Shown here: one piece after another, positions 1,969-23,050 of the stretch
Layout: each line of letters opens with the position of its first letter
Numbering within the stretch: position 1 is the stretch's first letter
Source of the DNA: a virus
Reading direction: 5' to 3' (one strand)
DNA length: 25,892 nt
Virus record (IMG/VR): IMGVR_UViG_3300005264_000058
Coordinates: 1-25,892 of that record
Position numbers and translations under genes: made by a program
The notes under the pieces: generated by a model
The model's database searches: none
Told to the model about the DNA's origin: nothing
The model's input: the letters and a program-made list of their open reading frames with translations, nothing else

Positions 1969-2994
1969 ATGGCAGCTGTAAATTTCACATCAATTACTGA
2001 TGAAGCTAAAAAAAGAGAAAAAGAATTAAGGTATTTGCCTTGGTTTTTTATCATGGAAGAGCTTGCAAAGCTCGGAATTAATATTAAAAAAGTAAAAGGA
2101 ATTGATATTATTACGGAACTACAACGTAAAACAGGAATCTTAAAACCTTACAACATCGGAACTGCTGCAACGGAACAAACTGAAGTTGCGAAATTATCTG
2201 AACGTGAATTGAAGCTTCAAACTTCATATTACGCATTAGTTGACAATATCAAAAATTATGCTACTGCTCCAATACTGAACAATCCTTTTGATTCAGGAGC
2301 TATCAACCAATCAAAGAAAGATCCTTTGGAGGTTGAAATAATTAAAGCAAGTATAAAAACATTTGCTGAAGATGTTCTTGATGCTCTTTTCTTTGCAGAA
2401 CGAGACGTAACCGATCTAACGCCTCAGGGTACGTTTGACGGGTTTAATACCCTTATTGCTGATGAGAAAACGGCTACAAAAATTTCTCTTGCCCTTGGAA
2501 ATATGCAAAATACAGGTGCTATTATAGCTCCTGCTTCTTCATCTTCTTATGCTGCTCTTACTCAATTAATTAATTTCGTTAGAGGTGCAGACAGAATGTT
2601 ACGCAAATATCCTGCTGATTTATTCCTGACTAATGCTGTATATAATCACGGCATTGATTCTCTTGAAAATCGTATGCAATACAAAGATGCTGATACCGAA
2701 GCTCTTGAAAATTACATCAATACAAAATGTAATTCGAAAATTAAAATCAGAACTTCTGATATTCTTGGCACTGGCGATAACATTATGTTAACAATGCCGG
2801 GTTTACTTGATTTTGGAATGGATAATCAAGGAGACCTTGATTTTGTTCAAATTAGAAGTATTAAGACAGATCCAAATATTGTTCAATTTTGGATGCAAGC
2901 AGATTTTGGTGCAAGAATTAACGGATTACACAAAAAAGTTTTTTGCGTAAATGAAAGAGCCGCTGTTTCTGATCCGATTTCGGGTGACTATTAA
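1969..2994 (+). CDS. Major capsid protein (HK97-fold type, likely)
   Basis: This 341-residue protein follows the protease/scaffold gene by 19 bp, the canonical place for the major capsid protein. The N-terminal 45 residues are charged and helical, followed by a region ending in residues typical of capsid A/E-loop domains (K-Y-P-A-D-L-F-L-T-N at about 217-226). The C-terminus reads V-Q-F-W-M-Q-A-D-F-G-A-R-I-N, which fits the last strands of capsid proteins of Bacteroides-type phages as I remember them. There is no obvious long delta domain to be cleaved, consistent with a separate scaffold. ATG 1969 lies behind an A-rich leader. The assignment rests on position, length and general character rather than on a diagnostic motif. 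Confidence 0.75.
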   Translation: MAAVNFTSITDEAKKREKELRYLPWFFIMEELAKLGINIKKVKGIDIITELQRKTGILKPYNIGTAATEQTEVAKLSERELKLQTSYYALVDNIKNYATAPILNNPFDSGAINQSKKDPLEVEIIKASIKTFAEDVLDALFFAERDVTDLTPQGTFDGFNTLIADEKTATKISLALGNMQNTGAIIAPASSSSYAALTQLINFVRGADRMLRKYPADLFLTNAVYNHGIDSLENRMQYKDADTEALENYINTKCNSKIKIRTSDILGTGDNIMLTMPGLLDFGMDNQGDLDFVQIRSIKTDPNIVQFWMQADFGARINGLHKKVFCVNERAAVSDPISGDY

Positions 2995-3064: not shown

Positions 3065-4009
3065 ATGAACAAATTTGGAAACACTTCAAAAACATTATTA
3101 ATTTTCACTGTTCTTCTTATTTTTGGAATAATAATTACAGCGTCAACGAACTCTTTGGCTGGATTTATCCCTAATTTAGCAATGGCAATTCCATTAGTGA
3201 ATTTGCCTAAAAGCAACACAGCAAATATGGCTGGAATATCTTCAATTGTTTATGTAGCAGAAGTTGACGACATTGAAACATTCCCAACATTCGCAACTAC
3301 TAAGACACTACCAGAACATTCGGTAGATTTAATTGGTGATTTTGTTATGAAAGCTACAAAATATTTTAGTGCATTTTATAGTACTCAAGAAATGGGCGAA
3401 CTAATATCCGAAGTCGAGGGCAATAGAGATGGTCAATATTTTAGGAACACAGGCTCGTTTTTCTATCCCAATACTACCTCAAGAGCTTTAGGGATAGCTA
3501 ATATCCTAAAAAATAAAAGTGTTATTATAATAATAAAAGAATTTAATTGTGATGGTACTGGAATAGCTCGTGTAGTTGGAGATGAACTCTTGCCTGCATT
3601 TGTTAAGCCAAGCATAACTACAGGAAAAGCGTTTGCAGACCAAAAAGGCATAACTTTTAATTTTGATGCTGCCAACTGTAATGTGCCTGCTGTCTATAGT
3701 GGAATTATTACCACAGAAGCTGGACAAATAAACACACCAACTCAATTAACTGTTGACACAACTGTTATTGATGGCTCACTTGGCTCTCGTTTTATTCCGA
3801 ACGCAGCTCAATCTACAGATTTAAGCATTGCTACTTATACTAATTTTGAACCTGGTGCGACAATCCGGGTTGAAGAAGGAGCTTTTGCGGGCAGCTTTAC
3901 ATTAGCTCTTGCTAATGGAGGAAGCGTAATATTAACAGCTACAGGAGACTATGTAGATTTATTCTTTGTTGAAGCTAATTTGCCGGTAGTAATTAACTCT
4001 AATTTGTAA
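3065..4009 (+). CDS. Structural protein downstream of capsid, possibly major tail or decoration protein
   Basis: A 314-residue protein with three parts. Residues 9-28 are a hydrophobic segment (T-L-L-I-F-T-V-L-L-I-F-G) that looks like a signal anchor. A central region of about 54-215 has G-N-R-D-G-Q, S-F-F-Y-P-N-T and G-D-E-L-L-P-A-F, and resembles a conserved virion protein of Bacteroides-type phages. The C-terminal 90 residues (I-N-T-P-T-Q-L-T-V onward) are beta-rich. Position directly after the capsid, and before a gene with a -1 frame extension, would suit a major tail protein or a head decoration protein; I cannot choose between them. The membrane-like N-terminus is odd for a virion subunit. 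An in-frame ATG at 3224 (M-A-G-I-S-S) would remove it and may be the true start. Confidence 0.6.
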   Translation: MNKFGNTSKTLLIFTVLLIFGIIITASTNSLAGFIPNLAMAIPLVNLPKSNTANMAGISSIVYVAEVDDIETFPTFATTKTLPEHSVDLIGDFVMKATKYFSAFYSTQEMGELISEVEGNRDGQYFRNTGSFFYPNTTSRALGIANILKNKSVIIIIKEFNCDGTGIARVVGDELLPAFVKPSITTGKAFADQKGITFNFDAANCNVPAVYSGIITTEAGQINTPTQLTVDTTVIDGSLGSRFIPNAAQSTDLSIATYTNFEPGATIRVEEGAFAGSFTLALANGGSVILTATGDYVDLFFVEANLPVVINSNL

Positions 4010-4026: not shown

Positions 4027-4359
4027 ATGTCAAACATAAAAAAATATTTGTCTGCAAAACCAAAAGACAGAAATTATAAAGATGGTGTTGATCTTTTGAA
4101 AAAATCAAAAGTAAAAATCAAAGCTGCTCGTAAAAAACTCATAATAGATGAACTAAAGAAAGAGGAAGCCTCTCTACTTGCTATTCAATTACTTGATATT
4201 TTTCTTCGTAAAGCACTTCGTATAGAAGAACAACAAAACAAAACAGAAGCGAAAAGTGCAATTGTTGTTGAGAAAAACAATGACGAAGTAATTGACGACA
4301 ACGATGACGATGGTGATGGTGCAAAAAAAAAACACACTTCCAAAAAAAAAGACAAATAG
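4027..4359 (+). CDS. Small charged protein, zero-frame product of probable -1 frameshift gene
   Basis: This 110-residue protein is Lys-rich at its N-terminus, helical in the middle (E-E-A-S-L-L-A-I-Q-L-L-D-I-F) and acidic then basic at its end (D-D-N-D-D-D-G-D-G-A-K-K-K). No family is recognised. Near its stop codon lie two A-tracts, ten A at 4323-4332 and nine A at 4342-4350, read in frame as AAA codons, so each contains the slippery heptamer A-AAA-AAA. A -1 slip on either tract avoids the TAG at 4357 and continues to 4610. Its place right after a candidate tail protein recalls the two-product tail chaperone genes (lambda G/GT), although the tape measure gene is far away. It starts at ATG 4027 with an A-rich leader. 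Confidence 0.7.
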   Translation: MSNIKKYLSAKPKDRNYKDGVDLLKKSKVKIKAARKKLIIDELKKEEASLLAIQLLDIFLRKALRIEEQQNKTEAKSAIVVEKNNDEVIDDNDDDGDGAKKKHTSKKKDK

Positions 4360-4610
4360 TTCGTCTTTTAAATCTTAATTTCGATGAATTAAATTTCAAC
4401 GAAAAAAATCTTTTCAAAAATGATGAAGCTGTTTTTTTAACTAAAAAACAGCTTTTTATTGTTAATGCACAATTAACAAGAGAAATAAGAACATATCACG
4501 AAAAGATAAAACTTATTTCTGATGGTGATAATAAAAAAACAATAGCTAATAAATTAATTGAATTAGATGAAGAACGAGCAGCTAATTGGGTCAAAATTGA
4601 CACTTTTTAA
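4317..4610 (+). CDS. -1 frame extension without a start codon (probable frameshift product)
   Basis: The frame one base back from the upstream gene is open from just before the A-tracts at 4323 to TAA at 4608. From 4350 it reads R-Q-I-V-R-L-L-N-L-N-F-D-E-L and ends A-A-N-W-V-K-I-D-T-F, with amphipathic, phage-like composition and no ATG, GTG, TTG or CTG codon. The same frame has repeated stops just upstream (4269, 4281, 4293, 4305, 4314), so it is open only where it is needed. A -1 slip on the A-tracts would fuse about 87 residues to the 107-110-residue upstream protein, giving roughly 195 residues. Alternatives are a coupled start at the ATA of ATAG (4356-4359), or a homopolymer error in the sequence. 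Its last 44 bases overlap the start of the next gene. Confidence 0.65.
   Translation, partial: WCKKKTHFQKKRQIVRLLNLNFDELNFNEKNLFKNDEAVFLTKKQLFIVNAQLTREIRTYHEKIKLISDGDNKKTIANKLIELDEERAANWVKIDTF
4426..4454 (+). other. Perfect 12-bp hairpin inside the -1 frame extension
   Basis: AAGCTGTTTTTT (4426-4437) pairs fully with AAAAAACAGCTT (4443-4454) around a 5-nt loop and is followed by more T residues. It has the shape of an intrinsic terminator but lies within coding sequence, about 75 nt after the second slippery A-tract. It could attenuate transcription or slow ribosomes; whether it has any function is inference. Confidence 0.5.
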
Positions 4611-5094
4611 ATTTAAACATTTTGATAAAATTAAAGAGCATATAAATGTACCAGACACTAACATCATACATTTTTTCAACAACAGAAAATGGCATAGTTA
4701 CGAACTTTTGCTTTATTTGCTTTTCATCTCTGGTCCCGGGAATGTAATTGTTACAACTTTCGGATTATCCGAAGAAGCAATAAGAGCATTAAATAAAGCT
4801 AAACAAGCTGGTTACATAAAAAAACTAACTCTTATACTCAATAAATCGTCAAAACAATTCAAGAAGCCATTACTTTATTTTCTCAAAAATATAGCAGATG
4901 AAACTTATTTTACTCTCATTCACGCTAAGATATTTTTAATTAGCAACAATGATTTTAAAATAACAGTAAATCAATCTGCTAATTTTTCTACTAATCCTAC
5001 TATCGAAAGTGGCATAGTAACTAATAATAATGAAGTTTTCGATTTGTATTTTAAAAACATACAAATGATTATAAATAATTCTAATAAACTATGA
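4567..5094 (+). CDS. Phospholipase D-like (single half-motif) protein
   Basis: This 175-residue protein carries one phospholipase-D superfamily half-site: H-A-K-I-F-L-I at residues 119-125 (H119, K121), then N-Q-S-A-N-F-S-T-N at 135-143, matching the HxK...N...S/N pattern of HKD enzymes. The upstream part (S-G-P-G-N-V-I-V-T-T-F-G-L-S at about 55-68) resembles the first strand and turn of the same fold. Family members with one half-site act as dimers, often as nucleases, but the usual Asp four residues after Lys is not evident, so catalysis is uncertain. It sits between the virion genes and the small terminase genes, suggesting a role in DNA packaging or end processing (inference). ATG 4567 overlaps the preceding frame by 44 bp; it is the only in-frame Met near the start. 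Confidence 0.65.
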   Translation: MKNEQLIGSKLTLFKFKHFDKIKEHINVPDTNIIHFFNNRKWHSYELLLYLLFISGPGNVIVTTFGLSEEAIRALNKAKQAGYIKKLTLILNKSSKQFKKPLLYFLKNIADETYFTLIHAKIFLISNNDFKITVNQSANFSTNPTIESGIVTNNNEVFDLYFKNIQMIINNSNKL

Positions 5095-5363: not shown

Positions 5364-5943
5364 AAGAAATTTCTTAGATAAACTATTAGATTATCATAAT
5401 GGTAATATTCAAAGTCTTACTCCTTTAGAACTAAAACACAAACAAAGGATAGATTATATTATCGAATTGAAAATTCATGATATTACTATTTCAGATAAAA
5501 GAATTATTTCTCTTATTAGAACAAAATATAATATAAAAGCTCCTATAACTATCCTTAATGATATAACTATTGCTGAACGTATTTTGTCGTTTGGCAAAAA
5601 CAAACGAATAGACACCGACAAGTACTGGATAAGATATTTTATCTCAGAAACGTTGAAAGAAGCTATAAGAATAGCAAGAGAAAAGGGAGATAGTTATGCT
5701 ATGATTCAAGGTGCAAATACTTTGGGAAAACATCATCTAACTGACAAAGAAGATGATATTGCTGTTGCTTTTGATAGAATCGTTCCATTTTTGCCAGAAA
5801 TTACTACTGACATAACAGTATTGGGATTGAAACCTATTGAGAATCTTGAAACTATAAAAAATAGTTTGCTAAAAAAATACTCTAAAGAAGTAGAAGACAT
5901 AAATTATGAAGAAATCAATAAAGAAAAAGTTCTATCTGAATAA
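5356..5943 (+). CDS. Small terminase subunit-like DNA-binding protein
   Basis: This 195-residue protein has an N-terminal predicted helix-turn-helix: I-S-D-K-R-I-I-S-L-I-R-T-K-Y-N-I with the T-I-L-N-D helix at about residues 45-70. A helical oligomerisation-like region follows (W-I-R-Y-F-I-S-E-T-L-K-E-A-I-R-I-A at about 90-110), then an extended acidic C-terminus. Immediate position before the large terminase, with 38 bp overlap, and this two-part build fit a small terminase that binds the packaging site and recruits the motor. The C-terminal tail (E-D-I-N-Y-E-E-I) would contact the large subunit by analogy with other small terminases; that is inference. Confidence 0.65.
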   Translation: MDKRNFLDKLLDYHNGNIQSLTPLELKHKQRIDYIIELKIHDITISDKRIISLIRTKYNIKAPITILNDITIAERILSFGKNKRIDTDKYWIRYFISETLKEAIRIAREKGDSYAMIQGANTLGKHHLTDKEDDIAVAFDRIVPFLPEITTDITVLGLKPIENLETIKNSLLKKYSKEVEDINYEEINKEKVLSE

Positions 5944-7555
5944 AGCTCAAAATTATCTTCATCTCATTGCACCTAAAAATCTTACTGTAATTGCCTCAAG
6001 AAGATTTGGTAAATCTGAAGGTGTACTAATGCCTATACTTCTTCGCAATGTTCAGTCAATGCCAAAGTCGAACGGAGCTATTGTTGCTCGTTCCTACAAA
6101 CAAGCTCTTACAAGAACATTACCTGCTACATTCCACGCATTATCAAGGTTAGGTTATCATGAAGATGTGCATTATGTAGTAGGTAAAAAAGCAAATAAAA
6201 AACTAAACTTTGCCGACCCATACATAAAACCCAGGAACTGGGATAATTTCATTCATTGGTATAATGGTTCAGTTAATGCTATTATATCTCAAGATGTTCC
6301 TTATAGTTCAAATTCTCTTACCTTAGATTATTTAATTGCTGATGAAGCGAAAACTCTTGACCATGATAAAATAATGAATGAAACTTTCCCGGCACTTTCT
6401 GGGCTTCATCATTTCCGAGACAACCCTTGGCACACTGGTTATACTTTTGTTACTGATATGCCTCCTAATCCAAACTCTTGGCTTTTACGTGAGAAAGAGA
6501 AAATGGATAAGTCTCTATTAAAAGTGATTGAAGGACTTATATTTGAAATTTCTAATCTAAAAAGCAGACCTGATGCTAATATAGAATCTGTAAAATATCG
6601 TATTTTGCGATATGAAAAAGAATTAAACTCTCTTAGGTCTAATCTCACTATGTATGTTGCTTATTCTATTCTTGAGAATTTAGAATATATAGGTCAAAAA
6701 TATATTGATGATCAATTCAGAAATCTTGACAATTATATATTCAAAACAGCCATACTCTCTCTCCCAGCTAAGAATGCGTCTGGCAGATTTTATGCTGCTC
6801 TAAATGACAAACATTATTATACTGCTATTAATAATGACTACTTATTGTCATTCCGAAAAACTGATAATTCTATTGACTGGAAGTCAGCAAGCAAACATAA
6901 ATTCGATTGTAAACAAGATTTAGATATTGATTATTCTAAACCGCTATGTATTGCATTCGACACCAACATTAATATAAACTGGATAGTAATTGGTCAGCCG
7001 AATTATAACGAAAATAAATTAAAAACAATCAATAGCCTGTTTGTAAAAGAAGGTAAAATGCTTCCAGAACTTATTGCTAAATTTGTTAAATACTATCAGC
7101 CTCTACAAAATAAAACGGTTGTCTTTTACTACGACCACACATTCCTACAAGGTAAGTCTGCCATTAGCTCTGAAACATTTTATAATACTATAGAGAAAGA
7201 ACTTACTAATGCTGGCTGGTATGTTAAACCTGTATATATAGGACAAGCTGAACGACACGAAATAAAACATAAAAATATTGACATTGCATTGAAAAGAAAA
7301 CGAGGGTTATTGCCTGTATTTAACAGGTTGAACAATGAAGCTCTTATTGATGCAATGGAAAAAGCAGGCACTCGTGTATCAACAAGAGGATGGGGAAAAG
7401 ATAAAAGTAAAGAAAAAATGCCAGATAGTGAAGACAATCCTGTTGAAACTCGTACTGATGGGACAGATGCTTGGGACACTCTATTTATTGGTGTTAATAA
7501 CTTTCCTTATCATAACTTTATTCCTTCTATTTCTTTAAACACTGATTTTATGTAA
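5906..7555 (+). CDS. terL: Large terminase subunit (packaging ATPase/nuclease)
   Basis: A 549-residue protein of the usual large terminase length. The N-terminal ATPase has a P-loop at residues 31-38 (S-R-R-F-G-K-S-E, a variant of the terminase Walker A) and a Walker B at 140-147 (L-D-Y-L-I-A-D-E). The C-terminal half looks like the RNase-H-fold nuclease: candidate metal-binding acids are D352 (I-A-F-D-T-N), D410 (F-Y-Y-D-H) and D521 or D524 (T-D-A-W-D-T). It should cut concatemeric DNA and drive it into the prohead through the portal. Unusually, the portal gene is 7.5 kb downstream and not next to it. ATG 5906 lies inside the preceding gene; the basic N-terminus (K-K-S-I-K-K-K) is plausible. 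A 600-bp gene-free stretch follows. Confidence 0.88.
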   Translation: MKKSIKKKFYLNKAQNYLHLIAPKNLTVIASRRFGKSEGVLMPILLRNVQSMPKSNGAIVARSYKQALTRTLPATFHALSRLGYHEDVHYVVGKKANKKLNFADPYIKPRNWDNFIHWYNGSVNAIISQDVPYSSNSLTLDYLIADEAKTLDHDKIMNETFPALSGLHHFRDNPWHTGYTFVTDMPPNPNSWLLREKEKMDKSLLKVIEGLIFEISNLKSRPDANIESVKYRILRYEKELNSLRSNLTMYVAYSILENLEYIGQKYIDDQFRNLDNYIFKTAILSLPAKNASGRFYAALNDKHYYTAINNDYLLSFRKTDNSIDWKSASKHKFDCKQDLDIDYSKPLCIAFDTNININWIVIGQPNYNENKLKTINSLFVKEGKMLPELIAKFVKYYQPLQNKTVVFYYDHTFLQGKSAISSETFYNTIEKELTNAGWYVKPVYIGQAERHEIKHKNIDIALKRKRGLLPVFNRLNNEALIDAMEKAGTRVSTRGWGKDKSKEKMPDSEDNPVETRTDGTDAWDTLFIGVNNFPYHNFIPSISLNTDFM

Positions 7556-8685: not shown

Positions 8686-9081
8686 ATGGCAATTAATAAA
8701 AAAAAAATAACTAAAATTCAAGTTCGCCGTCAACAATTAAAAGAAATTACTGCAAGTGCAAAATTTATGCACGAAGACGAAAAAATAAAAGCAGAAATCA
8801 ACGGAGATATTGAATTACTTTTAAAATTAAAAGAATTTACCGTAAATAAAATGATTTGGACTTATATTTATAAACGTGAGGTACTTAAATCTTTTAATAA
8901 TTGGCGAAAACTTGGTTATTCTGTAAAAAAAGGAGCAAAATCAAAATTACTCTGGGGACAAAAAATTTTTGCAGAAAAAGAAAATAAGGAGTTAAATAGA
9001 ATAGAAGAATACGAAATATATCCAGTTGCTTTTGTGTTTTCAGAAAAAGATGTTGTAAAACATAAAACAGAAAAAGTATAG
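8686..9081 (+). CDS. ArdC N-terminal-like (ssDNA-binding) protein
   Basis: A 131-residue protein. After a charged N-terminal 55 residues, the segment F-N-N-W-R-K-L-G-Y-S-V-K-K-G-A-K-S-K at about 71-90, followed by L-L-W-G-Q and I-Y-P-V-A-F-V-F-S-E-K-D-V near the end, matches the pattern of the ArdC N-terminal domain (W...G..VkKGek). In ArdC this domain binds single-stranded DNA, and ArdC proteins counter restriction systems. No metallopeptidase domain follows, so this is a stand-alone N-domain, a form I believe is common on Bacteroidota mobile elements. Protection of incoming phage DNA is inference. A hairpin terminator lies 10 bp downstream. Confidence 0.6.
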   Translation: MAINKKKITKIQVRRQQLKEITASAKFMHEDEKIKAEINGDIELLLKLKEFTVNKMIWTYIYKREVLKSFNNWRKLGYSVKKGAKSKLLWGQKIFAEKENKELNRIEEYEIYPVAFVFSEKDVVKHKTEKV

Positions 9082-10884: not shown

Positions 10885-12078
10885 ATGAAAATAAACAAAT
10901 CTCAAAAAGAAGCAATAACCAAGCTCCAAAAACAAAGAGTAGGAGCTTTATTTATGGAGCCAGGTACAGGCAAAACTTTGACTGCTTATAATTTAGTTAA
11001 GTCTGTTCCTGATGTAGATTACATTCTTTGGCTTACTCCATTTCAAACTAAAACTAATCTTAAAATTGAAATTGATAAATGCGGAGATTTGAGTAATTTA
11101 GATATAATTGGAATTGAAAGCCTGTCAAATTCTGACAACCTATATCTAAATTTGACAAGCGAATTAAAAAATGCAAGAAATCCTTTCATCATAGTTGATG
11201 AAAGTCTTAAAATAAAAAACGAAGATGCGAAAAGAACTCAACGAATAATTGAACTTAGTAAATTAGCAGAATATAAACTTATTCTTAATGGAACTCCTTT
11301 GAGCAGAAATCTTCTTGACTTATGGTCTCAAATGGAATTTCTTTCGTGGAAAGTTTTAAAAATGAATTATAAACAATTTAAAAATACTTTTGTAGAATAT
11401 ACTACTATAACTAAAAGAATTGGATATAAATCTTTCTCAAAAGAGTTCATCAACAAATATCACAATGTTGATTATTTATTCACACTTATTAAACCTTTCG
11501 TTTATGAGGCTAAACTCGAATTAAATAAAAATAAACAATACATTGATATTTCTTATGAATTATCAAAAGAAGAATTAGAAGAACACAATTTTATCAAAGA
11601 GAAATATCTTGATGATGATGCGATGGAGATGCGTAATAATAATATTTTTCTTGAAATCACTCAAAAACTGCAACACAATTATAGTTGTAGTCCTGAAAAA
11701 TTTCAAATTACAAAAAAACTATTGAAGGCAAATCCAAACGAGAAATTTATAATTTTCGCAAAATATATTGACACTCAGCAAGAATTAAAAGAATATTTCC
11801 CAAACTGCAAGATTTTAAGTTGGCAAAAGCACGCATTCGGTTTAAATCTGCAAGAATATAATAGAATAATATTCTTTGATAAAACTTGGGATTACGCTCT
11901 GCGAGATCAAGCCGAACACAGAGTTTACAGACTTGGACAAACAGAAGATTGTATTTTTTATGATTTAACTGGAAATGTAGGACTTGAAAGCCTTATAAAT
12001 CAAAATATTAACAAGAAACAACGGCTTTTAGATTATTTTAAGAACAAATCAGTCAAAGAATTAATGACAAAATTATGA
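10885..12078 (+). CDS. SNF2-type DEAD/DEAH-box helicase
   Basis: A compact 397-residue superfamily 2 ATPase. Motif I is E-P-G-T-G-K-T at residues 25-31, motif II is V-D-E-S at 104-107 and motif III is N-G-T-P-L-S at 135-140. In the second RecA lobe G-L-N-L-Q (near 320) and Q-A-E-H-R-V-Y-R-L-G-Q at 342-352 are motifs V and VI of the SNF2 family. The expected role is ATP-driven movement on or remodelling of DNA. The short length means there are no extra domains. It overlaps the PAPS-reductase-like gene by ATGA and is therefore coupled to the IbrA/IbrB-like pair; this trio recurs in Bacteroides-type phages as I remember them. Its partner or substrate is unknown. Confidence 0.85.
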   Translation: MKINKSQKEAITKLQKQRVGALFMEPGTGKTLTAYNLVKSVPDVDYILWLTPFQTKTNLKIEIDKCGDLSNLDIIGIESLSNSDNLYLNLTSELKNARNPFIIVDESLKIKNEDAKRTQRIIELSKLAEYKLILNGTPLSRNLLDLWSQMEFLSWKVLKMNYKQFKNTFVEYTTITKRIGYKSFSKEFINKYHNVDYLFTLIKPFVYEAKLELNKNKQYIDISYELSKEELEEHNFIKEKYLDDDAMEMRNNNIFLEITQKLQHNYSCSPEKFQITKKLLKANPNEKFIIFAKYIDTQQELKEYFPNCKILSWQKHAFGLNLQEYNRIIFFDKTWDYALRDQAEHRVYRLGQTEDCIFYDLTGNVGLESLINQNINKKQRLLDYFKNKSVKELMTKL

Positions 12079-13379
12079 GCAAAGTTCACAATAGAAATAA
12101 AAACGTTTATGAAGCTACAATGGAGCGAATAGAATACTTATTCTGTAATTTTGAAAGGATAGTTATTTCATTTTCGGGAGGCAAAGATAGCGGTGTGATG
12201 CTTGAATTAGTGTTAGAATACGCAATAAAAACTAATAACTTAAACAAAGTAGTTGTATATCATTTAGATTATGAGGCACAATACCAAATGACTACTGATT
12301 ATGTGCATCGGGTTTTTAATTCTTTGCCAGATGGAGTCCTTAAATTATGGTTTTGTTTGCCAGTAAAAGCACAATGTAGTACTTCAATGTTTCAGACATA
12401 TTGGGAGCCTTGGAAATTAGAAGATGAAAAAAAATGGTGTCGTGAACTTCCTCATGGTTGTTATCACGAAAGAAATTTTCCTTTTGATTTTAAATATAAT
12501 GTAAGTGATTATGAATTCAATCTTAATCTTGCTAAATCATTATCTAAAACAAAAAAAACAGCGTTTCTAATTGGAATAAGAACGCAAGAAAGCCTACACA
12601 GATACAAGGCTGTAACTAAACTTACTCATAAGAATGAATTTAAAAATAAAAATTTCACGACAAAAATTGCTAAGAATTGTATAAATGCTTATCCAATATA
12701 TGATTGGTTAGTAGATGATATTTGGGTTGCTAATGCAAAATTTGGGTATGATTATAATAAACTTTATGATTTAATGTATCAAGCAGGATTAACTCCTCAT
12801 CAAATGAGAGTTGCAAGCCCTTTTAATGATGCAGCAACTGAAAGTCTAAAACTTTACAAAACAATAGATCCGAATAATTGGGGCAAACTAATAGGTAGAG
12901 TTAATGGAGTGAATTTTACAGGACTTTACGGAGGAACAACCGCAATGGGTTGGAATACGATAACAAAGCCAAAACATTTTACTTGGAAACAATATATGTA
13001 TTTCCTTTTAGATACTCTTCCTGACGAAATAAAAGAAAATTATTTACGAAAACTAAAAACATCTTTCGCTTATTGGCTTGAAACTGGAGGAGCTTTGCCA
13101 GTTGATACAGTTAAAGAACTTGACAACAATTTAAAATTTGAAAACTTAGGAAAGCCAACAAATAAAAGGAATTATACAACAGAATATAATGTTATTAAAT
13201 TCAAGGATTATCTTGATGAAATTGATATTAAAAATCCAAACTTATTACCTACATATAAAAGAATGTGTATAGCAATAATGAAAAATGACACAAGTTGCAA
13301 AACGCTTGGTTTTGGGCAAACAAAAGCCGAATTGTCAAGACGAAAAAACGCAATAAACAAATACAAATCAATCTTATGA
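12075..13379 (+). CDS. PAPS reductase-like PP-loop protein, IbrA type
   Basis: A 434-residue protein with the PP-loop ATP-binding motif F-S-G-G-K-D-S at residues 33-39, characteristic of the PAPS reductase/adenylyl-transfer superfamily. Further family features are Y-H-L-D-Y-E-A (62-68), W-C-R-E-L-P (121-126) and L-I-G-I-R-T-Q-E-S (about 170), with a C-terminal domain like DUF3440 of IbrA. Together with the next gene (ParB-like, IbrB type) it forms the IbrA/IbrB pair; in E. coli the pair is named for regulating immunoglobulin-binding proteins, and the chemistry is unresolved. The superfamily also includes DndC of DNA phosphorothioation, so nucleic-acid modification is possible but unproven. 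No DndD, DndE or cysteine desulfurase is seen here. ATGA overlaps at both ends indicate coupled translation. Confidence 0.85.
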   Translation: MSKVHNRNKNVYEATMERIEYLFCNFERIVISFSGGKDSGVMLELVLEYAIKTNNLNKVVVYHLDYEAQYQMTTDYVHRVFNSLPDGVLKLWFCLPVKAQCSTSMFQTYWEPWKLEDEKKWCRELPHGCYHERNFPFDFKYNVSDYEFNLNLAKSLSKTKKTAFLIGIRTQESLHRYKAVTKLTHKNEFKNKNFTTKIAKNCINAYPIYDWLVDDIWVANAKFGYDYNKLYDLMYQAGLTPHQMRVASPFNDAATESLKLYKTIDPNNWGKLIGRVNGVNFTGLYGGTTAMGWNTITKPKHFTWKQYMYFLLDTLPDEIKENYLRKLKTSFAYWLETGGALPVDTVKELDNNLKFENLGKPTNKRNYTTEYNVIKFKDYLDEIDIKNPNLLPTYKRMCIAIMKNDTSCKTLGFGQTKAELSRRKNAINKYKSIL

Positions 13380-13885
13380 AAAGTCCAGTTTACAATGTAC
13401 AGGCTGTCCTTGTCGAAAAATTAAGGGCAAATAGCTATAATCCAAATTCTGTAGCTCCTCCCGAGATGAAATTACTTGAGAAGAGCATTGCAGAAGATGG
13501 TTTTACGATGCCAATTGTTTGTTACTATCTTGCTGATGAAGATATTTACGAAATTGTTGACGGGTTTCACCGTTATACAATTCTCAAAACTCGAAAATAT
13601 ATTTATGAAAGAGAAAATGGACTCGCTCCTGTTGTTGTTATCGAAAAAGATAAATCTAATAGAATGGCTTCAACGATTCGTCATAATCGTGCAAGAGGTT
13701 CGCATAGTATAGAATTAATGGTTAATATTGTAGCAGATTTAAAAAATTCAGGCATGAGTGATGCTTGGATAATGAAAAACATAGGAATGGACGCTGATGA
13801 ACTACTTAGACTAAAACAATTATCAGGATTAACAGAATTATTTAAAAACAAGGATTTCTCAGATAGTTGGGAACCACAAATATAA
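13376..13885 (+). CDS. ParB/sulfiredoxin-fold protein, IbrB type
   Basis: The start is ATG 13376, overlapping the IbrA-like stop by ATGA and giving 169 residues; a longer upstream frame only shadows the preceding gene. A ParB-N-like core is seen at about residues 11-108: L-R-A-N-S-Y-N-P-N, then V-D-G-F-H-R-Y at 61-67 (the G-x-H-R motif of the family) and H-N-R-A-R-G-S-H at 103-110. A C-terminal helical segment (W-I-M-K-N-I-G-M-D-A-D-E-L-L-R-L) resembles a helix-turn-helix. The G-x-H-R and R-A-R-G residues line the nucleotide or catalytic pocket in related proteins. It probably works with the IbrA-like protein on a nucleotide or DNA substrate (inference). Confidence 0.82.
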   Translation: MKSPVYNVQAVLVEKLRANSYNPNSVAPPEMKLLEKSIAEDGFTMPIVCYYLADEDIYEIVDGFHRYTILKTRKYIYERENGLAPVVVIEKDKSNRMASTIRHNRARGSHSIELMVNIVADLKNSGMSDAWIMKNIGMDADELLRLKQLSGLTELFKNKDFSDSWEPQI

Positions 13886-14806: not shown

Positions 14807-15034
14807 ATGATTTATATATCAGAGGCAATCAATATTCTTAACAACGGTGAACCACACGACATTGAGTTTGTTAGCAAAACAAAAGGCAATGTTACGCAAC
14901 TCAATCAAGCAATAGTTCTTTCCTCTAATTATAAACGCCGAAAATTCAACATGAAGTCCACTATTTCTAAGCAAATACGCTGGGTTTATTATGTTTTAAT
15001 AATTTCAATAGACAAAGAGGAGGTATATTTATAA
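14807..15034 (+). CDS. Small conserved Bacteroidota protein at head of portal operon
   Basis: A 75-residue protein starting I-Y-I-S-E-A-I-N-I-L-N-N-G-E-P-H-D-I-E-F, which I recognise as a recurrent small protein motif (S-E-A-I-x-x-L-N-x-G-x-P-H-x-I-E-F) in Bacteroidota phages and transposons. Function is not known to me. The ATG lies 4 bp after the promoter -7 box, so its mRNA may have no leader. The only later in-frame Met (at 14951) would discard the conserved part. Its stop TAA shares one base with the portal start, and its last codons contain the portal Shine-Dalgarno site. Confidence 0.6.
   Translation: MIYISEAINILNNGEPHDIEFVSKTKGNVTQLNQAIVLSSNYKRRKFNMKSTISKQIRWVYYVLIISIDKEEVYL
15018..15023 (+). 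promoter_or_regulatory. Canonical Shine-Dalgarno of the portal gene
   Basis: AGGAGG lies 10 nt before ATG 15034 and inside the last codons of the preceding gene. Such sites are rare in this window, which otherwise follows the Bacteroidota pattern of A-rich leaders. Confidence 0.55.
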
Positions 15035-16377
15035 TGGAACAAATAATATTAAACGAAAGTGTTTTTGTCATAAAATCAAAAACAACAATATACGAAAAAG
15101 TAGAAGCTCCAATTAAGATAGAATCACCATCTTTAAAACGAGCAATAGTTCCGTGGGGAGAAGACAACGACTTCCCAAATCAAACAGTAGCATTAGTTGG
15201 GAAAAATCCAACAGGAAATTCTTCTATTGAATTTAAAATAGATGTTACTTATGGTTCTGGAGTCAAAGTCGGATATATACAAGATGAAATATTTAAAGAA
15301 TTTTCAAAAGAAGAGCTTGAAAAGAGAACTGATTTAAAACAAATAACTGATTTTTTTGAATACAACGATATTCAAGCTCAATATGCTGAATTAATATCAG
15401 ACCTGCACTGGTTTCATCACGGATACGTTGAGCTTATTCTTGACAAAGAACGAAAAAACATAGTTCTGTTTTCGTCCAAAGAAGCTACTTATTCTCGTCT
15501 CGAACAAGCTAATCCAAAAACAGGACAATTAGAACACCATGTATATTTTGCAAATTGGCCTGAAAATCCAAAAAGCGAAGATATTGATGTAACAAAATTA
15601 CTTAGCTACAAAGCTCCCAGCAGAGATTTAGAAATAAGAATGGGATTAGCCGAAAGTATTGACGGAATTACAAAAACAGAAACTGACAACAGATATATTA
15701 TACCTGTCCGATTAACTACTCCGGGCAAGCTTTATTATCCAAAACCTTATTATTTGTCCGCTATCGAAAGCGGTTGGATTGATTTTGCTAATGCAATACC
15801 TCAGTTCAAAAAAGCGTACATGAAAAACACAATGTCTATTAAATATATAATAGAGATTGATAAAGAATATTTTCCACGTATTTTTGCAGAAGAAGGAATA
15901 GAAACAAAAGAGGAACAAGCCGAACGTAAGCGAAAAGAGCTTACGAATATAAATACATTCTTAAAAGGAGCAGAAGCAGCAGGTAAATCTATGATTACCT
16001 ACTCAAAACGAACTCCTAACGGAGAAAAATCAATTCCAGAAATTCAAATAACTGTATTGAATGCAAAAATTGGAGGTGAGTTTCTTGAAGACAGTCAAGA
16101 GGCAGCTGCTAATATATTTAACGCATTCAGAGTACACCCAAGCATGATAGGAGTTATCCCAGGGAAAACTTCTTCTAATCTAAGCGGTTCAGACAAAAGA
16201 GAACTACTACGCATAGCTCAATCTATGCAGGGCAGAATAAGACACACAATATTAAAGCCTCTTTATGTTGTTAAAAAAATAAATAAATGGCCCGAAGATG
16301 TTGTTTTCGCAATATCAGATATTATTCTCACAACACTTGACACTAATGGTGAAACACAAAAAATAACAACTGTATGA
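15034..16377 (+). CDS. Portal protein
   Basis: A 447-residue protein of typical portal length. It begins with residues resembling portal N-termini (I-V-P-W-G-E-D-N-D-F-P-N at about 42-53), contains a middle region with the G-K-L-Y-Y-P-K-P-Y-Y motif (about 231-240) and ends with a helical crown-like region: H-P-S-M-I-G-V-I-P-G-K-T, then S-S-N-L-S-G-S-D-K-R-E-L. These agree with portal proteins of Bacteroides-type phages as I remember them. It forms the dodecameric DNA gate that binds the large terminase. Unusually the terminase is 7.5 kb upstream, beyond the accessory cassette. It is followed by an ATGA-coupled connector gene. Confidence 0.78.
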   Translation: MEQIILNESVFVIKSKTTIYEKVEAPIKIESPSLKRAIVPWGEDNDFPNQTVALVGKNPTGNSSIEFKIDVTYGSGVKVGYIQDEIFKEFSKEELEKRTDLKQITDFFEYNDIQAQYAELISDLHWFHHGYVELILDKERKNIVLFSSKEATYSRLEQANPKTGQLEHHVYFANWPENPKSEDIDVTKLLSYKAPSRDLEIRMGLAESIDGITKTETDNRYIIPVRLTTPGKLYYPKPYYLSAIESGWIDFANAIPQFKKAYMKNTMSIKYIIEIDKEYFPRIFAEEGIETKEEQAERKRKELTNINTFLKGAEAAGKSMITYSKRTPNGEKSIPEIQITVLNAKIGGEFLEDSQEAAANIFNAFRVHPSMIGVIPGKTSSNLSGSDKRELLRIAQSMQGRIRHTILKPLYVVKKINKWPEDVVFAISDIILTTLDTNGETQKITTV

Positions 16378-18748: not shown

Positions 18749-19164
18749 CAATTACAAATATACCTAAATCAGCACGTGTTGATTTAGAAAAATGGGCTAA
18801 ATATACTGTTGATAAATTTGAATTTGCAGTATCAAAATTCAAGTTAAAAGACTCTGGCAAGTTAATTAATTCATTTCAATATCAAGTCTCACAAGATGCC
18901 GATGGAAGCACTGCGATGATAAGTTTTGCTTTTGAGTATTATTTAAGAATGATTGATATGGGTGTTGGTTCTGGAACTACTTATGATGACAGAGATGATC
19001 AATATGCCAAAAATAGAGCATTCGGAAGAGGAGCTGGAACACGAAGACGAAAATATCCTGTTTATAACAAAATATTCTATTCGCAATTAATGAGATTAAA
19101 CGAATTATTGCAGAAATATTATAATAACACCGCATTAAATGTAATAACAAATGGCACAAGTTGA
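18739..19164 (+). CDS. HK97 gp10-like neck/tail protein
   Basis: A 141-residue protein. The pattern K-W-A-K-Y-T-V-D-K-F ... L-K-D-S-G-K-L-I-N-S-F-Q-Y-Q-V ... I-S-F-A-F-E-Y-Y-L-R-M-I-D-M-G-V-G resembles the gp10-type minor tail/neck family, in which a G-x-L-x-x-S-x stretch is followed by a strand and a Y-x-x-x-x-D/E-x-G segment. It also has a basic G-R-G-A-G-T-R-R-R-K segment at about 95-104. It precedes the tape measure, the usual place for this family, and overlaps it by 14 bp. Confidence 0.6.
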   Translation: MELTITNIPKSARVDLEKWAKYTVDKFEFAVSKFKLKDSGKLINSFQYQVSQDADGSTAMISFAFEYYLRMIDMGVGSGTTYDDRDDQYAKNRAFGRGAGTRRRKYPVYNKIFYSQLMRLNELLQKYYNNTALNVITNGTS

Positions 19165-22100
19165 AGGAAACGTAAAAGTTAATGTAAATGCAAACCAAGC
19201 TGTTCGAGAACTCGAAAAACTTGAAAATAAAGCAGAAGAGTTAAGACAAGAATTAATTAAAATTAATAAACAGAAAGTTATTGACCCTAAAAAAGTCAAA
19301 CTACTTGAGAAAGAGCTTAGAAATGTAACAAAAGAAACTAATAAACTTCGTCAAAGTGCCGCTAATTATCAAACGGTACTTAAAAATCTATCCGGTTCGT
19401 CGCTTAAAAATTTATCAAAAGCAGCTCGACAACTTACGTATGAGATGAATAATCTCGACAGGAACACAAAAGAATGGAAACAAAAAGCCGAACAACTCGG
19501 CAAAATAAAAGCCGAAATATCATCAGTCCGTAAAAAAATGCAAGGATTGAATACTACTACTAAAAAATCACAAGGATTATTTGGGAAAGCAACAGATCAA
19601 TTCAATAAATTTGGTGCAATCGGAATTGCTATTATTGGTTCATTGATGATGGCTTTCAATGCTTTTAAACAAGTGTTTCAAAAATTCACAAAAACACTTA
19701 TGGATTTTGAAGATTCATTTACAGATGTTTTAACATTACTAAGTAGCGACCAAATAAATGAATTTGGAGAAAGCCTTGAAAAAGGAGCTATCCAAACAAT
19801 GACAAAATTTGGCTTAGAAATTAACGACGTAAATAAATCATTGTTTGATACTGTTTCAGCTGGAATTAATGCAGCTGATGCAATTGATGTTCTTAATGCA
19901 GCTGGCACATTGGCAACCGCAGGTGCAACAAACTTATCTGTAGCTACCGATGGACTGACAACAATTATTAATGCTCATAATTTAGAGACAAAAGAAGCAA
20001 TTGACGTTTCTAATGCTTTTTTCTCTGCTCAAAAATTTGGTAAAACTACTGTTGAAGAACTTGCTGCTAATTATGGCAAATTAGCTCCCGTTCTTTCGAT
20101 TGTAAATGTTAGTTATCAAGAAGGTTTATCTATGCTTGCCGAAATGACTAAGCAAGGTATTTCAACTGCCGAAAGCACAACTTACTTAAAATCAATGTTT
20201 AAAAGCCTCATAAAACCAACCGCAGAGGCTGAGAAAGTTTTACGTCAATTTAATGTTCCTGTTGGAGTTACTGAAATTCAAGCAGCGGGATTGACTAATA
20301 CATTAGAAGCTCTTAATAATATGATAGAGCAAAATCCTGATGCTATTGCTCAAGCAATTCCAAGTGTAGAAGGTATGACAGCTGCGTTTGCTTTATCTGG
20401 TGAAAGTTTAGATGATTTTACTAATATTCTTAGTAGCGTAAATGCTGATATTGGAGACAACAGTTCTATGATGGATGCTTATTCTATTAAATCAGAAACA
20501 ATGTCTTTTAAAATCGAACAACAAAAAGCCAAATTATCAGCTCTTATTTTAGAGCTCAAAGATAAATTTGCTCCTGTTATTTCTACTGCTTTAACATATA
20601 TTTCAAAATTCACTAACTTTATTCGAAATTTAACTATCGAATTCTTTAAAACAGGTTCAGAACAGAAACAATGGGTAGTTATTCTCAAACAAATATGGAA
20701 ACTTATTGATAGTCTTGTTTCTGGGATTTTAAAGCCTTTAATATATACGTTAAAAGAAATCTTTTTTAATACTAATAAAAATGTCATTCTTTCTCGAACA
20801 TTTATAGGAATATTGAAATTTCTTGTAAATGTAGTAAAAGCTGTTGTCTTAGTCTTTGGCGACATGATTAAAATATTAGTAGATATTGCTGCGGCATTCT
20901 TAACATACAATAACAATGTTCAAGAAGTTACAGATAGCCAACAAAGGCTAAAAGACATGAATAATAAAATAATTAAAACAATAATAGACGAACGAAATGA
21001 AATTACAAAACTTCTCGCTATTGCAAAAAATGAGAATAAATCTAAGCAAGAACGATTAGGTGCAATTAAAAAATTAAATGCAATTAGTCCAGAATACCTG
21101 AATAGTATAACGCTTGAGACTGTTAATACCGAAGAAACGGTTGTCGCAATAAATAGTTATATTAGTGCTTTGGAAAGTAAAACAAAAGCACAAATAGCAT
21201 CTCAATATGCAGAACAGATAACAGCAGAAATAATGGAGAAAGAAATTCAGCTGTACAAGAAGCAAGAACAACTAATGAATGAATTGACATTGGCTGAAAA
21301 TTCTTATCTACCAAACAAATCATTTGAAGACATGACACCTGTTGAACAACAAACACAAAGTGAAGTGCGAGTAGATGCAAAATCTGCTTTTACAACTCAA
21401 ACGAAAGGAGATATTCTTGCAATTCAAGAAAGCATCGCACAATTAGAACAAGAAAAACAAAATTACCTCGCAATGGTTGAGGATATGGGTATTGATTTTT
21501 CCGAGCTATACACTCAGACTGATCCCGATACTGATTTAGGAAATGGCGGAGGATTAACTCCTCCTGTTCCAGATTACACAGACGTTAAAAATAACGAGGC
21601 TGAACTCGCTGCATATATAACAAATATTAGAAAAGAATTGCTATTTGACGAAAAACAACGCAAAATTGAGGAGTTAAGAATATGGAACGAAGCCGAGCAA
21701 CAAAAAATCAATGACTGGACAGCTGCACAACAAGAAAAAGATATTGCTCTCGAATTATTACAAAAACAACATCAAAGAAAATTGACAGAAATAAATAATT
21801 ATTATTCTAAAATCAATTATCAAAAAATAACAGAACTTACAGATCTCGTTCGCAAAAAAGAATTAGAACTATACGGAACAAGAGAACAACTAATTCAATC
21901 AGAAATTGAAAAAATAAGAAGTTCTTACGATGAGAAAATAGCACTTGCCCAAGAAATGGCAAGAAAAGACAACTCAAATGCAATTCTATTTGCTCAAAAA
22001 GCAGAAGAATTAAGAGATTTACGAGAAGAAGAAGTAAAACAGTATCGTTTAGAAAAAGAAGAAGAATTTCAAAAGCAAATGCAAGACGTAAAAAATAAAT

Positions 22101-23050
22101 ACGGCTTACAAACTGATGATGAGAAAATGCAAATCGAATTAGACGACTTACAATCATTGTACGATCAAAAACTAATTTCAGAAGAGAATTTTCAATTAGC
22201 AAAACAAAATATAATTGACAAATATAACACAACAGAATTATTAAGTGCCGAAGAACTTGAAGATCAAAAGAAACAACTTAGACAAAGCAATCTTCAAGAT
22301 TCTATGCAGGTAATAGATACGTTAGGGAAATTCTTTTCAACAATGAAAGAAGATGAATTGCGAGAAGCTGGAGATAATGAAGAAAAGAAAAAAGAAATTA
22401 TGAAACGTTATGCCGATATTGAAATAGGTGTAACAATCAGCAAAATCATTGCAAGTTCAGCATTAGCAATAATGCAAGCACTTGCACAATTAGGTCCAAT
22501 CGCTGGAGGAATTGCCGCAGGATTAATAACACTAACTGCTGGAGCTCAATTAACAGCAGCAGTAAATGAACGTGCTAAAATCCAAGGAATGGAATCTGGA
22601 GGAGTTGCAGTCGTCCGGGAACAAGACGGCAAACATTTCACTGCCACACCAACATCAAACAGAGGTGTAATTTCAAAGCCGTCAATTCTTGTTGCCGAAA
22701 ATGGTCCTGAATACGTTGTGCCAAATGAAGGAATGGAAAATCCTGAAATCATGAATTTTCTGATGATGATTGAAAATTCAAGAGTAGCCGGAACACTAAA
22801 ACAATTCAGTTTTCCAACAAAAATAAAAGGTTACGAAGATGGAGGATTAACAAACAGTATTACAACTGAATCGCCTGCAAAATCAGAAACAGATGCTTTG
22901 TCAAAAAAAGCAGACATACTAATAGCATCATTTCTTGAATTCAAAAAAGAAATAACTGCATGGCAAAAAGCCCTTTATGTAGATTATTTTTCATTCAAAG
23001 AAGCTGATGAGGAAATCTCAAAATTAGAAACAAAAGCAACTATCAAATGA
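19151..23050 (+). CDS. Tail tape measure protein (TP901 type)
   Basis: A 1299-residue protein. Residues 1-135 are a coiled coil and 154-171 a hydrophobic segment. About 185-430 is a TP901-like tape measure domain (D-F-E-D-S-F-T-D-V-L, then A-G-A-T-N-L-S-V-A-T-D-G-L-T, then E-L-A-A-N-Y-G-K-L-A-P-V-L). More hydrophobic stretches lie at about 550-600, a long Glu/Lys/Gln coiled coil at about 830-1090 and an Ala/Gly-rich hydrophobic patch at about 1100-1140. The C-terminus has V-A-E-N-G-P-E-Y-V-V-P. It sets tail length and leaves with the DNA during injection. By the usual scale of about 1.5 angstrom per residue the tail would be near 190-200 nm, a long flexible siphovirus tail. It overlaps the next gene by ATGA. 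Confidence 0.9.
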   Translation: MAQVEGNVKVNVNANQAVRELEKLENKAEELRQELIKINKQKVIDPKKVKLLEKELRNVTKETNKLRQSAANYQTVLKNLSGSSLKNLSKAARQLTYEMNNLDRNTKEWKQKAEQLGKIKAEISSVRKKMQGLNTTTKKSQGLFGKATDQFNKFGAIGIAIIGSLMMAFNAFKQVFQKFTKTLMDFEDSFTDVLTLLSSDQINEFGESLEKGAIQTMTKFGLEINDVNKSLFDTVSAGINAADAIDVLNAAGTLATAGATNLSVATDGLTTIINAHNLETKEAIDVSNAFFSAQKFGKTTVEELAANYGKLAPVLSIVNVSYQEGLSMLAEMTKQGISTAESTTYLKSMFKSLIKPTAEAEKVLRQFNVPVGVTEIQAAGLTNTLEALNNMIEQNPDAIAQAIPSVEGMTAAFALSGESLDDFTNILSSVNADIGDNSSMMDAYSIKSETMSFKIEQQKAKLSALILELKDKFAPVISTALTYISKFTNFIRNLTIEFFKTGSEQKQWVVILKQIWKLIDSLVSGILKPLIYTLKEIFFNTNKNVILSRTFIGILKFLVNVVKAVVLVFGDMIKILVDIAAAFLTYNNNVQEVTDSQQRLKDMNNKIIKTIIDERNEITKLLAIAKNENKSKQERLGAIKKLNAISPEYLNSITLETVNTEETVVAINSYISALESKTKAQIASQYAEQITAEIMEKEIQLYKKQEQLMNELTLAENSYLPNKSFEDMTPVEQQTQSEVRVDAKSAFTTQTKGDILAIQESIAQLEQEKQNYLAMVEDMGIDFSELYTQTDPDTDLGNGGGLTPPVPDYTDVKNNEAELAAYITNIRKELLFDEKQRKIEELRIWNEAEQQKINDWTAAQQEKDIALELLQKQHQRKLTEINNYYSKINYQKITELTDLVRKKELELYGTREQLIQSEIEKIRSSYDEKIALAQEMARKDNSNAILFAQKAEELRDLREEEVKQYRLEKEEEFQKQMQDVKNKYGLQTDDEKMQIELDDLQSLYDQKLISEENFQLAKQNIIDKYNTTELLSAEELEDQKKQLRQSNLQDSMQVIDTLGKFFSTMKEDELREAGDNEEKKKEIMKRYADIEIGVTISKIIASSALAIMQALAQLGPIAGGIAAGLITLTAGAQLTAAVNERAKIQGMESGGVAVVREQDGKHFTATPTSNRGVISKPSILVAENGPEYVVPNEGMENPEIMNFLMMIENSRVAGTLKQFSFPTKIKGYEDGGLTNSITTESPAKSETDALSKKADILIASFLEFKKEITAWQKALYVDYFSFKEADEEISKLETKATIK

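Follow-up and report, generated by a model that had tools for sequence, protein, structure and literature searches.

A phage late gene split between two overlapping reading frames that meet at long A-runs

How does a phage produce the protein encoded by a reading frame that has no start codon? The question is posed by a 25.9-kb IMG/VR virus record (hereafter the window, meaning the whole stretch of DNA analyzed), which has 31% G+C and a siphovirus-like set of late genes. Here a short ORF of 110 aa, closed by a TAG at 4357, is overlapped by a second ORF in the -1 frame (Table 1). The original prediction described this second frame as start-less and joined to the first by a programmed -1 frameshift at two A-tracts. 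Its description of the DNA was accurate. The 97 codons from 4317 to 4607 contain no ATG, GTG, TTG or CTG, and their product has homologues in other phages, with 26-45% identity over about 85 residues to its nearest relatives, within the clade defined below. The ten- and nine-A tracts each hold an A_AAA_AAA in the zero frame, and the -1 frame is indeed closed up to the tracts and open beyond them: it is stopped at 4281, 4293, 4305 and 4314, the last stop (TGA, 4314-4316) lying 6 nt upstream of the first run, and nowhere between 4317 and 4607.

Table 1. Coordinates of the split gene and of other features in the window
Feature	Position	Strand	Remarks
S49 protease	702-1949
Probable capsid gene	1969-2994		Assigned by position; no family match
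Probable tail tube protein, upstream neighbor of split gene	3065-4009	+	Predicted fold (pLDDT 89.5), Foldseek
Zero-frame ORF: N-terminal helical domain, acidic linker, short tail; 110 aa	4027-4359	+	N-domain HMM E 3e-6
-1-frame C-terminal domain, 97 codons and TAA at 4608	4317-4610	+	C-domain HMM E 1e-16
A10 run, first possible slip site	4323-4332	+
A9 run, second possible slip site	4342-4350	+	Best counterpart of the single A9 in L136/L137
Weak stem AAAAGAC/GTCTTTT, zero-frame stop in loop	4346-4368	+	Present in window, not conserved
PLD-like gene, downstream	4567-5094	+	Start overlaps end of -1-frame ORF
Large terminase	5906-7555	+	Served to find and place relatives
Portal	15034-16377
Tape measure	19151-23050

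Split and fused relatives of the gene

Direct tblastn of the window -1 frame against named phages gave no match, nor did single-protein scans with the window terminase and capsid genes. Relatives were gathered via related terminases, yielding more than 100 loci in which both domains were surveyed by HMM; all the split genomes are metagenome assemblies. At 84 of these phage or prophage loci, the N and C domains lie in one unbroken ORF, as in MT835542 (317 aa), and it is this arrangement that identifies the two frames of the window as halves of one protein. At about 17 further loci (e.g. Microcystis phage Mea-Yong924-1) the C domain was found with the N domain below the HMM threshold, in an ORF that is mostly long enough for both halves.

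The -1 split, accompanied by a linker run of nine or ten A's, is present in eight lineages comprising 11 loci, namely the window, L136/L137 (the nearest relatives), L007, L009/L010, L012, L013, L014/L087 and L071. In the TerL tree, the split loci and the fused locus L039 form a single clade (support 100), whose members share 54-78% TerL identity and do not exceed 48% to any outsider. L039, which has at most seven A's, is sister to a ninth split lineage, L011, where the run has eight A's and the offset is +1; with nine A's, L011 would match the -1 sense of the other split lineages. The A8 of L011 (2235-2242) may reflect a miscounted homopolymer, or else the direction of slippage may truly have changed in this lineage. 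Comparing the junction in related phages, as the original prediction had proposed, hence returned a split and an A9/A10 run that are kept in eight lineages, together with distant relatives that are fused. Wider genome samples contained no split members beyond L087/G001. When the L011 junction was used as a search pattern, L011 itself was the only locus recovered, and no copy of the window junction turned up in an equivalent search. Two of the surveyed bins, L088 and L105, are named Helicobacteraceae and Oscillospiraceae and carry a Bacteroidota-type phage terminase; they are probably mis-binned contigs.

The association of the run with the split goes well beyond the background frequency of such tracts. 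In the other coding sequence of these phages, the density of runs with nine or more A's is 0.037 per kb, which corresponds to an expectation of about 0.01 per linker, and yet such runs sit at the junction in 8/8 of the -1 lineages; only one of the 84 fused relatives has such a run in its linker. A shift-prone site is therefore conserved at the junction across diverged relatives, as is expected of programmed frameshifting or slippage. In L009, L012 and L014, the final stop of the -1 frame directly adjoins or overlaps the run, so the shift cannot take place upstream of it. The closely related L136 and L137 are distinguished by a 51-nt linker insertion and by substitutions, all of which keep the zero frame, whereas they do not differ in the A9 or anywhere in the gene downstream of it. 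Some fused relatives (L028, L029, L030, L031, L034 and L106) carry an A9 inside the gene, in L106 within the linker, where slippage would truncate rather than extend the product.

The downstream frame behaves as coding sequence. Across relatives, differences in the C domain by codon position of the -1 frame amount to 0.40/0.29/0.54, position 3 being the most variable, and no conserved start of its own is present across the split members. Selection was further assessed by recoding one frame with the phage's own codon usage and checking whether the other stayed open. When the zero-frame tail was recoded, the -1 frame was open in 0/5000 trials for L009 and L071, and at frequencies of 0.003 and 0.007 for L012 and L013, respectively. 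Such openness is rare by chance, and the -1 frame must hence be under selection from the run onward. In the reciprocal test, recoding of the -1 frame usually allowed the observed zero-frame length, and only L009, whose zero frame runs up to 71 codons beyond the A-run, was marginal (0.04). The recoding test thus detected no selection of the zero-frame tail in its own right and lends no support to the idea that this tail forms a second protein terminus under selection; the short product may consequently be a mere by-product.

Probable slippage at the A-runs and competing explanations

The arrangement is best explained, with good confidence, as a single gene whose product is a late phage protein with two domains, all of it helical, and whose two overlapping frames would be joined by slippage at the A9/A10 runs in a disordered linker. 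Expression without slippage would yield a short protein made up of the N domain and a charged tail. Addition of one A, or removal of two, by the host RNA polymerase would join the C domain to it; alternatively, a ribosome slipping by -1 would give the full-length protein, as made directly by unsplit relatives. Sequence comparison establishes that the gene is split, in which sense its frames are offset, that the run is there and that both halves are homologous to one protein. The conserved frame change at the A-runs implies short and long products, and we infer that both are made and needed, because a split that is so easily lost has persisted.

As to the step at which the frame changes, RNA polymerase slippage is probably the main contributor. 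The runs of the -1 members comprise 9-10 A's, fall in codon phases 0, 1 and 2 and are followed by G, T or C, and no conserved downstream structure was found among the split members, in which z ranges from -3.6 to +0.5 and the folds differ. The stem reported by the original prediction does exist in the window and its loop contains the zero-frame stop; its energy is -5.0 kcal/mol, with z at -3.4 for a 60-nt frame and -1.8 for a 91-nt frame. It was nevertheless rejected as a conserved stimulator, since nothing comparable is conserved in relatives. A run of this length, in any phase and with no conserved stimulator, favors transcriptional slippage. Nine A's suffice for slippage by bacterial RNA polymerase (PMC5009743), and the sequence pattern expected of the process (at least nine A's, independent of phase and free of a stimulator) is displayed by all -1 members; L011 has eight.

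Classical programmed ribosomal -1 frameshifting, which would deliver the long product at a low and fixed ratio, is a possibility that we take seriously while considering it the less probable of the two. An A_AAA_AAN lies in frame in every split member, providing the X_XXY_YYZ heptamer on which such shifting relies, and no conserved downstream structure that could serve as stimulator was found, even if stimulator-free shifting occurs in some tailed phages (PMC5009743). Eight of the nine split lineages shift in the -1 sense, and constant direction has been read as a ribosomal hallmark by Antonov et al. (PMC3711429); L011, with its +1 sense, would point the other way if real. Ribosomal shifting also leaves unexplained why the run is held at 9-10 A's when six or seven would suffice, and why the codon phase and the base after the run both vary. 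Of the programmed -1 frameshift first proposed for this locus, the conserved frame change at the A-runs stands, whereas for its ribosomal step the length and phase of the runs and the missing stimulator favor transcriptional slippage.

It is rather unlikely that slippage is compensatory only, that is, that an indel in a poly-A linker broke the gene and slippage merely rescues the full-length protein, leaving the short form without a role. Such a reading would fit the uniformly fused state of the distant relatives and the zero-frame tail with no detected selection, and slippage has been described to rescue interrupted genes elsewhere in bacteria (PMC5009743, PMC4256274). One-base indels in an A9 are nonetheless easy and would fuse the frames again, and yet eight lineages stay split and only L039 is fused. 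Reversible phase variation at the DNA level is likewise unlikely, because every long-run member of the split clade is out of frame. It is highly improbable that the frames are separate genes, with independent initiation of the downstream one at a non-standard codon: an ATG lies immediately ahead of the C domain in L007 (6451) and another at 2200 in L011, but the window frame is devoid of ATG, GTG, TTG and CTG, no such codon precedes the domain core in L012, L013 and L014, and selection on the -1 frame reaches back to the run. Least credible of all is a homopolymer error of sequencing or assembly in what is truly a single ORF. A-runs are indeed error-prone, a single additional A would bring both frames into one ORF, and L011 (A8, +1) lacks just one A relative to the others; against this, the same -1 sense recurs in eight lineages, replicate contigs from different metagenome datasets agree (A10 in L009/L010, A9 in L136/L137) and the zero frame of L009 extends far past the run.

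A candidate virion-assembly protein and its parallels

The AlphaFold model of the natural fusion in L039 (mean pLDDT 81.8) comprises two helical parts connected by a disordered linker with pLDDT below 50, and the shift site falls in this linker. Searches of PHROG, Pfam, NCBIfam, BFVD and PDB returned no family or fold match to the protein beyond generic coiled coils, and the family is an undescribed one. Its function probably lies in tail or virion assembly, beside the tail tube gene. The original prediction was correct in placing a candidate tail protein immediately upstream. The product of this neighboring gene has a predicted beta-rich fold, and many of its top Foldseek matches are phage or injection-system tubes, among them lambda gpV, the P1 tube, Mu tail parts, SPR and several injection-system tubes; none reaches E 0.001, and its identity as tail tube is hence only probable. 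The same protein has an N-terminal hydrophobic helix (residues 5-34) that resembles a membrane or signal segment and is atypical for tubes; its counterparts, such as that of L009, are of equal length.

The position of the split gene before the terminase and far from the tape measure was also described correctly. The suggestion of a tail-assembly chaperone of the lambda G/GT type was not upheld. The likeness to G/GT (Xu et al. 2004; PMC5009743) extends to the -1 sense, the short and long forms and the location directly after a probable tail tube gene. Here, in contrast, the tape measure is not adjacent but 14.5 kb away, there is no match to the chaperone family in sequence or fold, the junction holds a long A-run, and the frameshift is not family-wide, most homologues (84) being fused.

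Closer parallels in mechanism are found in bacterial secretion systems. The tssM1 gene of Citrobacter rodentium (A11) and tssM3 of Yersinia pseudotuberculosis undergo poly-A transcriptional slippage and, like the gene studied here, are interrupted soon after a long A-run, have relatives with a full-length single ORF, give two length variants and show no detectable stimulator (PMC4256274). Slippage at the A11 of tssM1 provides 20-25% full-length protein, and both forms are required (PMC4256274). These are, however, Type VI secretion genes, each in a single species, whereas the present case concerns a phage late gene in a diverged clade, with slippage predicted from sequence. In Shigella, spa13 has a short N part and a C-terminal extension that is reached by slippage and overlaps the start of the next gene (PMC5009743), but it is a non-homologous Type III secretion gene. 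An equivalent overlap recurs here, since the start of the next gene coincides with or overlaps the terminus of the C frame in most members, and this suggests that translation of the long form may be coupled to that of the downstream gene. In the window the latter is the PLD-like gene, which is separated from the large terminase by two small genes and whose homologue in L002 has a PLDc_2 match below Pfam's cutoff.

A further comparison is with unsplit relatives such as MT835542 and Mea-Yong924-1 (QXN68079.1, annotated as hypothetical), which share the C domain and the gene neighborhood, with both domains present in MT835542, and differ in having one continuous ORF and a linker without a long A-run. 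The same gene thus occurs both as one ORF and as a pair joined by slippage, a natural comparison in which the switch is placed on one clade and through which it becomes testable how and why programmed frameshifts arise. In practical terms, gene-calling programs will overlook the C-terminal half of the protein, and a candidate assembly protein family is added to Bacteroidota phages. It is conceivable, though we advance this tentatively, that a poly-A tract misread by the host RNA polymerase was fixed in this clade of Bacteroidota phages and gave rise to a two-product virion-assembly gene in which the short:long ratio and expression of the next gene are set. If true, this would constitute transcriptional slippage conserved in tailed-phage morphogenesis, of which the open-access literature searched, with incomplete coverage, yielded no example in a morphogenesis gene; slippage has been proposed incidentally in single phages, for the CPt10 methyltransferase (PMC2853527) and for a topoisomerase and a tape measure gene of an Acinetobacter prophage (PMC6095929).

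Several minor observations concern the surroundings of the gene. A large gene is inserted directly after it in L012 (4666-6288, about 540 aa) and in L071 (1283-2740, about 485 aa, with a CUB-like stretch), and the L071 insertion overlaps and shortens the C domain. Elsewhere in the window, a phosphoadenosine phosphosulfate reductase-like gene (12075-13885) overlaps gene 13295-13885, whose sequence appears ParB-like as judged by eye, and an A10 run (8698-8707) near the start of ORF 8686-9081 is a possible further slip site.
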